Assembly (NCBI GenBank): GCA_024451685.1
Contig: JAMXCW010000001.1
Coordinates: 124,001-188,000 of the forward strand
DNA from: Candidatus Bathyanammoxibius amoris
GTDB taxonomy: Bacteria; Planctomycetota; Brocadiia; Brocadiales; Bathyanammoxibiaceae
Direction: 5' to 3'
Length of the DNA: 64,000 bases
The notes under the pieces are model-generated. The model had not been told where the DNA came from. It saw only the letters and a list, made by a program, of their open reading frames with translations, and did no database searches. Position numbers and translations under genes: made by a program. Positions within the stretch are counted from its first letter, which is position 1. Every line of letters starts with the position of its first letter. Shown here piece by piece: positions 36,425-42,736 of the stretch.

Positions 36425-37693
36425 TTAATATTCCACCCTCTTCACACCGTTTGGGCGCCAGGCGGGGGAGATGACGCCGTTGCCGCCGTTACCGTTGCTG
36501 CCATGGCCGTTACCATTACCGTTGCCGTTAACGGGCTCAAGCAGCCTTCCCCGGGCGAGGGTGAACTCGCCGTAGCGGTCGTTTACCGAGTCTACGGCGT
36601 GGATAAGGTCTTTTTCCTTCCGGTCTTTCTTAAAAAGCGGCGGTTGTTCTATTTTCACCAGACCGCTCACGCTCACCCCCACCAGCCTCACCGGTTTTTT
36701 CAGCTTGAAGGATTTAAGGAGTGACGTGGCCAGACGGCATATCTCAAACCCGTCGTTCAGATACTCCCCGATGGTCTTTCTCCGGGAGAAGGTGTGGAAG
36801 TTCGAGTAGCGGATGGTAAGGGTGACCGTCCTGCCGAGGTAGTGTCCGCGCCGCAACCTCCTGCCCACCATTTCCGAGAGCTGGAGGATGTGACGTTCGA
36901 GGGTTTCGGGGTTATAGACGTCCCTGTTCAGGGTGGTGCTGTGGCCAACGGACTTTACGTCCGGCTCCCGGTCCACGGGTACGACCTGGCTGTCGTCGAG
37001 GCCCTGCGCCATGAGGTGGAGTCTCTCGCCCACCACGCCGAACCTCTTCTTCAGCGTCCTTACCGGTGTGCCTGCCAGTTCACCGCAGGTCTTTATGCCC
37101 ATCTCACCGAGGTTTTTTGTTATCCGCGGCCCTATACCGGTAATGTCACCGACGGGCAGGTCTTTAAGGATTTTTCCCGCCTCCCGGCGGTTACGGATTA
37201 CCACAAGCCCATCCGGCTTCTTCATGCCGCTTGCGAGTTTCGCGAGGAGCTTGTTGGGGGCCAGGCCTATGGAGCAGGTAAGGCCAAAAGTGTCCTTAAT
37301 CCGGCGTCTTATCTCCGAGGCCATGTCTGCCGCCCCGTTAGAGAGCCCCGCGGCGCCCGTTATGTCCATAAAGACCTCGTCCACCGAATACACCTCTACA
37401 AGGGGGGTGTACTGTTTATATAGTTTAACCAGCCGGGTGCAGGTATCGGTGTATCTCTGGTTATTTGCATGGACGAAGATAAGCCACGGGCAGAGCCTCT
37501 TTGCCTCGCCCCTGGTCATGCCCGTCTTTATTCCGAAGGCCCTGGCCTCGTAGGAGGCGGTACTGATTACGGTCCTCTTTTGAGAGCCGATGACGGCTAC
37601 GGGCCTGCCCCTCAGCCTCGGGTCTACCCGCTGCTCCACCGAGGCGAAAAAGGCGTCCATGTCTACGTGCATAATAACTTTATTTTTCTTCAT
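36425..37693 (-). CDS. dinB: DNA polymerase IV (Y family)
   Basis: Error-prone translesion polymerase. MHVDMDAFFASVEQ with D11 and D13 region, STASYEARAFGIKTGM, and YSVDEVFMDI with the catalytic acidic pair are intact; the thumb has helix-hairpin-helix IGPRITKNLGEMGIKT; the little finger follows (about 230-350). After residue about 375 comes a low-complexity Asn-Gly tail (NGNGNGNGHGSNGNGGNG) before a short basic end; there is no clear beta-clamp peptide of the QLxLF type there. It is the fourth gene of the lexA operon, so SOS induction is expected. Confidence 0.94.
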   Translation of the reverse strand: MKKNKVIMHVDMDAFFASVEQRVDPRLRGRPVAVIGSQKRTVISTASYEARAFGIKTGMTRGEAKRLCPWLIFVHANNQRYTDTCTRLVKLYKQYTPLVEVYSVDEVFMDITGAAGLSNGAADMASEIRRRIKDTFGLTCSIGLAPNKLLAKLASGMKKPDGLVVIRNRREAGKILKDLPVGDITGIGPRITKNLGEMGIKTCGELAGTPVRTLKKRFGVVGERLHLMAQGLDDSQVVPVDREPDVKSVGHSTTLNRDVYNPETLERHILQLSEMVGRRLRRGHYLGRTVTLTIRYSNFHTFSRRKTIGEYLNDGFEICRLATSLLKSFKLKKPVRLVGVSVSGLVKIEQPPLFKKDRKEKDLIHAVDSVNDRYGEFTLARGRLLEPVNGNGNGNGHGSNGNGGNGVISPAWRPNGVKRVEY

Positions 37694-37892: not shown

Positions 37893-38156
37893 TCATCCGG
37901 TTTCCACGTTTGCAAGTTCCCATACGGAATTTTCGGTGTTGTACAGCAGCTCGTAGAGGTTCGCCCCGTCGGTCACGGAGAAGTGGTGTATAACCGCCCT
38001 TCCCTGACGGCTTGTCCAGGTGTAGGTTATGGACTTGATGCGGTGCTGTCTGCTGTTCCATTTGAACCACACGGGTTTTATCTTCTCGCCGTCTCCAAAT
38101 ACCGCGCCAACCTTGACGCGCTCGTTAATCGGGGCAATCACTGTGTCGCTCTCCAC
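37893..38156 (-). CDS. DUF6504-like protein, 87 aa
   Basis: The sequence pattern KPVWFKWNSRQHRIKSITYTW ... RAVIHHFSVTDG..YELLYN....WEL matches what I remember of DUF6504, a small domain encoded beside dinB, imuB and dnaE2 genes in actinobacteria; I cannot confirm this without a profile search. The likely start is GTG 38156. The frame is the same as lexA and is open from the lexA stop onward, including a (AGC)5 serine run at 38163-38177, so translation by read-through or an upstream start is possible. Function unknown; context points to lesion tolerance. Confidence 0.6.
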   Translation of the reverse strand: MESDTVIAPINERVKVGAVFGDGEKIKPVWFKWNSRQHRIKSITYTWTSRQGRAVIHHFSVTDGANLYELLYNTENSVWELANVETG

Positions 38157-38192: not shown

Positions 38193-38807
38193 TCATAAAC
38201 TCCTCAGAACCGCCACTACCTTACCCACCACGGTGACGCTGGATTGCCCCGGCCCGATAACTATGTCCTTATAGGCGGGGTTTGCGGGCACAAGCCTTAT
38301 CTCCCTGCCCCGCTTGTAGAATTTTTTCACGGTGGCCTCGTCGTCTATCAGCGCGGCCACGATGTCGCCATTATTCGCAGTGGGCTGGGGCCTTACCACC
38401 ACGTAGTCGCCGTCCTCTATGTGGGCCTCAACCATACTGTCCCCTTCTACTTTAAGTAGGAAGTTGCCACCCCCCACCGTAAAAGATTTATCAACGGCTA
38501 CATATTCCTCCACGTCCTCTATGGCCGGGTGGGGTGCGCCAGCCCTGATATGGCCTACGAGGGGGAGGGTTACCGGTCTGCCCGCGCCCAGAGACTCGCA
38601 GAACTCGATTGCCCGTGCCTTACTTGAACGCCGGATGTAGCCCTTTTCCACAAGGGCGGATAAACAGTTCTGGATGGCGCTGTGACTGGCCAGCCCCAGC
38701 CCGTCCTTCATCTCCCGTATACTCGGCGGGTAACCCGTTTCCTCAATATATTTCTTCAGGAACTCAAATGCCCTGGTCTGTGCCTTTGTAAGGGTTCTTG
38801 TTACCAT
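38193..38807 (-). CDS. lexA: SOS repressor LexA
   Basis: A winged-helix DNA-binding domain (residues about 1-65, LTKAQTRAFEFLKKYIEETGYPPSIREM) is followed by the self-cleaving S24 domain with cleavage site A89-G90, S124 (EGDSMVEAHI) and K161 (ATVKKFYK). I choose the ATG at 38807 (204 aa, E. coli-like); an ATG 18 bases earlier lies inside the operator. Neither start has a Shine-Dalgarno, and the predicted promoter would begin transcription within two bases of 38807, so a leaderless message is plausible. It leads an operon with the DUF6504-like gene, the 41-aa gene and dinB. Confidence 0.94.
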   Translation of the reverse strand: MVTRTLTKAQTRAFEFLKKYIEETGYPPSIREMKDGLGLASHSAIQNCLSALVEKGYIRRSSKARAIEFCESLGAGRPVTLPLVGHIRAGAPHPAIEDVEEYVAVDKSFTVGGGNFLLKVEGDSMVEAHIEDGDYVVVRPQPTANNGDIVAALIDDEATVKKFYKRGREIRLVPANPAYKDIVIGPGQSSVTVVGKVVAVLRSL

Positions 38808-38827
38808 ATGGTACGTTTGTACCATAT
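38806..38827. promoter_or_regulatory. Probable LexA operator
   Basis: A perfect inverted repeat: ATATGGTAC, four-base spacer GTTT, GTACCATAT. It overlaps the predicted -10 box and the lexA start codon, so bound repressor would block initiation. The core GGTAC-N4-GTACC differs from the E. coli (CTGT-N8-ACAG) and Firmicutes (GAAC-N4-GTTC) boxes. Confidence 0.75.
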
Positions 38828-38844
38828 TATGTAAAGGTTGTCAA
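38816..38844 (-). promoter_or_regulatory. Promoter of the lexA operon
   Basis: On the - strand TTGACA (38844-38839), 17-base spacer, TACAAA (38821-38816). The start would be near 38809, adjacent to ATG 38807. Confidence 0.55.
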
Positions 38845-42714: not shown

Positions 42715-42736
42715 CCGCAGGGCTAAAGCCCTGCGG
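42715..42736. repeat. REP-like perfect hairpin after the M28 gene
   Basis: CCGCAGGGCT and AGCCCTGCGG (10 bp, perfect) with an AA loop, 20 bases past the stop codon. No T run follows, so it is more likely a repeat element than an intrinsic terminator, although it could stabilise the 3' end. Confidence 0.6.

Follow-up and report, generated by a model that had tools for sequence, protein, structure and literature searches.

The inverted repeat at the start of lexA is very probably the autoregulatory operator of the organism's own LexA, placed so as to shut a lexA-orf87-dinB unit, and the lexA message would be leaderless. The site was studied in a 64,000-nt stretch of the Candidatus Bathyanammoxibius amoris genome (the window) and compared with lexA loci of its order, including those of the window's own family (f1), a sister family (f5) and a further group of the order (f3). 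From these sequence comparisons we infer LexA binding, the position of the 5′ end, induction by DNA damage and cotranscription with dinB.

The lexA gene, its neighbours and the host genome

The gene under study encodes a genuine LexA with helix-turn-helix and S24 domains. It is followed by two further genes on the same strand:

38193..38807, minus strand: lexA, 204 aa from the ATG at 38807 (TIGR00498, 211.3 bits against a cut-off of 110.95; Pfam LexA_DNA_bind, PF01726, and Peptidase_S24, PF00717)
37893..38156, minus strand: orf87, small conserved protein of 87 aa between lexA and dinB (tblastn, 30 of 33 distinct lexA loci of the order)
36425..37693, minus strand: dinB, DNA polymerase IV (PRK02406.1, 326.7 bits against a cut-off of 256), presumed to lie in the same transcription unit

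The A-G cleavage context of the window LexA aligns with that of solved LexAs, and RecA-stimulated self-cleavage is predicted. The closest named relatives of the protein were found in Planctomycetes bacterium RIFCSPLOWO2_12_FULL_50_35 (81% identity), Candidatus Brocadiaceae bacterium T3Sed10_170 (64%) and a Planctomycetota MAG (61%).

The search for orf87 and dinB covered 33 of the order's 47 lexA loci. dinB lay 3′ of lexA in 19 of these 33 (with flanks of ~ 1.5 kb for most), and orf87 was not found behind lexA in three, among them locus L018 of the window's own family; L046 is cut by a contig end. No Pfam match was found for orf87, and its homologue in L021 gave a sub-threshold match to DUF6504 (E 0.05). 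The protein may be a standalone ImuB-C-like protein, a kind that can adjoin Pol IV genes according to the sections of PMC8072749 cited here. Genome G059 carries two different lexA-orf87-dinB cassettes (L048, identical to L085, and L093) with identical operator cores, reflecting either a duplication or a mixed bin.

The host assembly is a 2.07-Mb draft, 95% complete. An HZS_alpha (hydrazine synthase) domain was detected in six of seven sampled f5 genomes, in all three sampled f1 genomes (the window's own included) and in one of two f3 genomes, and in neither G059 nor G060. This distribution fits anammox bacteria and their kin, and does not in itself prove the metabolism. In the window's own genome (G000), outside the window, an HZS_alpha match of 70.2 bits lies at C12:59251-59565, within an open frame of 830 aa. 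Of nine genomes from the window's family, six yielded no lexA (G001, G002, G003, G005, G007 and G008; 77–94% complete, G007 being in 10 contigs), which suggests loss, although these drafts are incomplete.

A probable operator core on the presumed −10 element, against the start codon

The inverted repeat ATATGGTAC-GTTT-GTACCATAT was confirmed at 38806–38827 of the window, where its last two bases are the A and T of the minus-strand ATG (38807–38805). Its outer ATAT arms are not conserved, leaving a conserved core of 14 bases. The elements of the region are as follows:

38806..38827, unstranded: full palindrome ATATGGTAC-N4-GTACCATAT, with the outer four bases on each side not conserved
38810..38823, minus strand: predicted LexA operator core, GGTACAAACGTACC on the coding strand (clade consensus RRTACANNYRTACC), present in six of six lexA loci of the clade
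38839..38844, minus strand: −35 element TTGACA (TTGACAA invariant in six of six clade loci)
38816..38821, minus strand: −10 element TACAAA (TACANN in relatives), within the operator, 17 nt from the −35
38805..38807, minus strand: conserved lexA start codon ATG, 8 nt past the −10 (predicted transcription start 38807–38809)
38823..38825, minus strand: alternative in-frame ATG within the operator, in frame solely in G000 and G004

The preliminary description of this DNA had placed a perfect repeat over the −10 box and ATG of lexA, and the repeat does sit on the presumed −10 and against the start codon. As such the palindrome is unremarkable, since perfect 9+4+9 inverted repeats occur at five places in the window, this one included; that the site is more than chance follows from its position together with its conservation at all six lexA loci of the clade. 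The remaining four repeats lie at 42715, 42774, 50029 and 51340. In the 2,068,674-base draft genome the core GGTACN4GTACC occurs at a single place, the lexA start, while a reversed control pattern occurs at three. A 12-base palindrome, TACCATATGGTA, at 38802–38813 overlaps the operator and was dropped because it is absent from G004.

The six clade loci come from five genomes (G000, G004, G006, G060 and, with two, G059) and share both the operator and its surroundings. Their cores read GGTACAAACGTACC, GGTACAAATGTACC, AGTACATTTATACC, GATACATTTGTACC and, twice, GGTACACTTGTACC, with one half ATAC rather than GTAC in two of the six operators (L019 and L049). The common plan can be written as TTGACA, 17 or 18 nt, a −10 TACANN inside RRTACANNYRTACC, 7 or 8 nt, and ATG. 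When the six loci (86–116 bases each) were aligned, the invariant columns were TTGACAA, a T, TACA, TACC and two A further down. LexA copies of G059 and G060 grouped with the window's family in the LexA tree (SH-aLRT 95, quick method).

Evidence for a probably leaderless lexA message

The distance from −10 to ATG was 7–8 nt in all six f1 loci, a geometry that fits a leaderless message in each of them. No Shine-Dalgarno match was found in the 25 nt before either ATG 38807 or ATG 38825, in line with an earlier claim for both candidate starts; by the same crude test, such a match preceded 37 of 57 window ORFs versus 11 of 57 internal controls, lexA being among the ORFs without one. Given the conserved spacing and the missing Shine-Dalgarno sequence, the best reading is that the lexA mRNA is most likely leaderless and begins on ATG 38807 or no more than two bases from it, as had been proposed in the preliminary description. 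ATG 38825 is probably not the lexA start, being in frame only in G000 and G004.

A simple scan for promoter-like pairs listed other hexamers instead of the TTGACA/TACAAA pair. The scan requires a T at position 6 and so misses a TACAAA −10; in this clade the −10 is TACANN because it is fixed by the operator in which it sits.

A precedent exists in Mycobacterium tuberculosis, where tagging and frameshift experiments placed the translation start of lexA at its transcription start (sections of PMC2897130 cited here). The likeness lies in the coincidence of start codon and transcription start, which in our case is predicted. No operator-on-start-codon arrangement appears in those sections of the M. 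tuberculosis account, whereas the window's clade has a predicted operator against the ATG.

Box type and LexA residue 44

The window site GGTACGTTTGTACC fits the Nostoc PCC 7120 LexA box, RGTACNNNDGTWCB, at every position, and LexA is predicted to bind it; a wider cyanobacterial consensus is AGTACWNWTGTACT (both from the cited sections of PMC3091678). The likeness resides in the GTAC-N4-GTAC core and its spacing, as in the Prochlorococcus MED4 lexA site GGTACAAATGTATT reported there. The box had been described earlier as distinct, and as neither the proteobacterial nor the Firmicutes SOS box. It does differ from the E. coli and Bacillus boxes, but since it matches a published cyanobacterial box it is not a new type. 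The Bacillus or Gram-positive box, given as CGAACN4GTTCG in the same portions of PMC3091678, has equal spacing, and most f5 and f3 loci use GAACANNTGTTC; compared with it, the window's clade shows one symmetric change, GAAC to GTAC, plus GG-CC flanks. Position relative to the gene also differs, as cyanobacterial lexA sites lie 35–132 nt before the first codon in those sections, whereas the site of the window's clade lies on it.

The passages of PMC3091678 cited list Glu44 as one of the residues with which E. coli LexA touches DNA. Three cyanobacterial LexAs have Gln44, said in the cited part of PMC13416735 to agree with other cyanobacterial LexAs, and the window LexA resembles them in having Gln44 in its recognition helix. 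Otherwise this helix is unlike theirs, with Ala41, Pro42 and Ser45 in the cyanobacterial sequences of that excerpt and Ser41, Ala42 and Asn45 in the window LexA.

Across the order, Gln44 (E. coli numbering) was present at seven of 47 LexA loci, and all seven had GTAC-type operators. Six of these constitute the window's clade, while the remaining one, L040 (G043), falls within f5 and carries the operator GGTGTACACATGTACACC. Among the other 40 loci, 32 had a GAAC-type site, one (L032, with Arg44) had a single GTAC half and seven had no good site. The count of 47 includes L152 and L156 (divergent, Phe44, operator not found), which were kept outside the tree. Duplicate rows were dropped: L047 and L082 are the contig of L018, L085 and L086 repeat L048 and L049, and L134, L135, L137, L140 and L143 repeat other loci. 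On a LexA tree of 48 rows, two changes are required.

A phylum-wide survey of residue 44 took in 40 loci, one from each of 40 genomes; a match was present in 305 of 391 genomes. The reading frame was recovered at 25 of the 40 loci and the upstream region scanned at 13, in none of which (0/13) was a GTAC or GAAC box seen. Three of these 13 (L182, L184 and L190), which belong to other parts of the phylum, have Gln44 as judged by eye, and with no such box in ~ 150 nt upstream they speak against Gln44 being sufficient for a GTAC box across the phylum. No cyanobacterial sequences were present among 60 listed of 3917 records of plasmid LexAs.

Putative operators of f5 and f3

At 23 of 26 f5 loci an operator matching GGTGAACANNTGTTCACC at a minimum of 13 of 16 positions lay 0–1 nt after a TATAAT-type −10, L040 among them being in fact of GTAC type and L032 mixed. 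The other three (L023, L029 and L035) matched at just 10–11 of 16 positions; they encode related LexAs with Arg44, and their decayed or altered operators, which end in TGAGCACC, are perhaps a third box type.

An in-frame ATG inside the operator, 9–10 nt past the −10, was found at 17 of the 26 f5 loci. Of the eight base pairs of symmetry, two were broken in 12 of these 17 operators and three in another three, while the last two had one broken pair and no broken pair, respectively; of the nine operators without such an ATG, seven had no broken pair and two had one (Mann-Whitney p = 6e-5, on rows that are related to one another). Lower symmetry is what would be expected in the former group, as there the bases would encode the first LexA residues. 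At two f5 loci (L020 and L021) the lexA ATG stands 33 nt past the −10, and a nine-codon ORF starts inside the operator and ends with a stop that overlaps the lexA ATG (ATGA); it is a possible coupled leader peptide.

The operator lies ~ 8 nt further upstream relative to the −10 in f1 than in f5, while the distance from −10 to ATG changes by just 1–3 nt. In f3, none of the ten scorable loci out of 13 had an in-operator ATG (L039, L042 and L151 had no promoter in the scored stretch). Leaderlessness is therefore not universal in the order, given these ten loci and the nine of 26 in f5.

Taken together, we suggest tentatively, at somewhat under even confidence, that the LexA box of the order switched from GAAC to GTAC at least twice, each time with Gln44 (nearly all others have Lys, Arg or Ser), with the leaderless −10 to ATG geometry fixed and the operator moving around it, and that the second half-site in f5 also serves as the first lexA codons and has decayed under that load. 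If this is true, residue 44 would be a main switch of LexA specificity, and lexA would present a case of a regulatory site and a coding start on shared bases.

Search for a wider SOS regulon

The preliminary description had proposed a genome-wide search for the box near damage genes. In this search the exact box occurred in the 2.07-Mb draft at lexA only, and no good match lay near recA; dinB, downstream of lexA, is itself a damage gene. Counts of the box did not exceed those of the reversed-pattern control in the organism's own genome (up to three mismatches), in five genomes (up to two) or in nine genomes (up to one), and a wide regulon was set aside on these grounds. A canonical SOS regulon, with several unlinked damage genes under one box, was not seen in this 95% complete draft.

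Up to three mismatches, 44 places were listed in the own genome, of which 17 were inspected (lexA, 14 loci and two more). Apart from lexA, three places came within one mismatch of GGTACANNTGTACC, all of them inside ORFs, and ORFs of at least 200 aa also contained 11 of 14 further places with two or three mismatches to a longer pattern. A single NB-ARC STAND ATPase gene (L013:1564-3018) is preceded by two weak three-mismatch sites, 146 nt apart (L012 and L013), probably by chance, and a zinc-ribbon gene begins 27 nt past another weak site (L011). The place at C22:18980 was considered as rRNA and ruled out, there being no Rfam match and the place lying in an ORF. Counts of the f5 box, taken in five genomes of that family, were also close to control (seven versus six in G033, equal in three and fewer in one).

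Around recA (16 genomes, ~ 1.5 kb on each side; 15 informative, the G001 recA lacking its 5′ end at a contig boundary), neither type of box rose above the level of five shuffled sequences per locus. The exception was one two-mismatch match far downstream, at position 3171 of L110 (G044). In the window's own genome recA directly follows a 189-aa ORF, which we take to be a gene of the RNA ligase/phosphodiesterase family, and the recA promoter may lie upstream of the scanned stretch.

With no excess of the box seen elsewhere and the lexA-orf87-dinB unit conserved, the likely target of the operator is this cassette, and its likely role is to autoregulate a small translesion unit induced by damage.

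Proposed mechanism and alternative explanations

A LexA dimer bound to GGTACANNTGTACC would cover both the −10 and the point at which lexA transcription begins, excluding RNA polymerase and shutting the lexA-orf87-dinB unit. Upon DNA damage, RecA would trigger LexA self-cleavage and the unit would be expressed, restoring LexA and making polymerase IV. LexA would be translated from a leaderless message whose first base most likely falls on ATG 38807 or no more than two bases away. Transcription and translation had both been thought to be blocked at this one site; a separate block on translation found no support, as LexA would act on double-stranded DNA, and a second block is not needed, because a stopped RNA polymerase leaves no message.

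LexA autoregulation could be correct without a leaderless mRNA, if transcription began at a different promoter further upstream and the ATG were recognised independently of a Shine-Dalgarno sequence, which we regard as unlikely. The other promoter-like pairs of the simple scan would agree with such a start, as would the f5 loci without an in-operator ATG and the scored f3 relatives, whose starts lie 24–130 nt past the −10; yet TTGACA and its spacing to TACANN are kept at all six clade loci with almost nothing invariant further upstream, and the 7–8 nt to the ATG are kept as well. It is very improbable that another regulator binds the site, or that the palindrome stands next to lexA by chance. 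Either would sit well with the number of perfect palindromes in the window and with the missing regulon, but the only exact core of the draft genome falls on the lexA start, the site is conserved throughout the clade and fits the cyanobacterial LexA box, and operator type covaries with the DNA-contact residue 44 of LexA.

As for the extent of the response, a full SOS regulon might exist in which many damage genes carry degenerate boxes missed by simple patterns. Bacterial LexA sites do vary, the assembly is ~ 95% complete, the STAND ATPase gene has its pair of three-mismatch sites upstream, and the inspection covered 17 of 44 weak places and ~ 1.5 kb on each side of recA. Against this stand counts at or below the reversed-pattern control whether one, two or three mismatches are allowed, the location inside ORFs of the other places within one mismatch, and a recA without a box, and we consider a hidden regulon of this kind quite improbable. 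The preferred reading remains autoregulation of lexA by its own LexA at a promoter with a leaderless message.

Relation to known systems and significance

The Deinococcus lexA-imuY-imuB-C-dnaE2 locus is a lexA-led mutagenesis cassette (cited sections of PMC8072749). As in that description, lexA of the window is presumed to be the first gene of an operon that also encodes a Y-family polymerase and a protein of 80–90 residues; in contrast to it, the polymerase is DinB, the cassette has no dnaE2, and orf87 is a candidate for ImuB-C. The box type (cyanobacteria), a leaderless lexA (M. tuberculosis) and lexA-led polymerase cassettes are thus already known. Their combination, a cyanobacterial-type box in Brocadiales lying on the −10, against the start codon and covarying with residue 44, was not seen in the literature searched, and it appears to be a neat variation on a known control circuit rather than a system of a new kind.

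The literature searched says little about the LexA boxes of planctomycetes. The order offers a natural experiment in LexA target change, in which the operator and one contact residue change together while the leaderless promoter stays nearly fixed, and the data suggest a very small, local SOS unit composed of lexA and a translesion polymerase, without recA.
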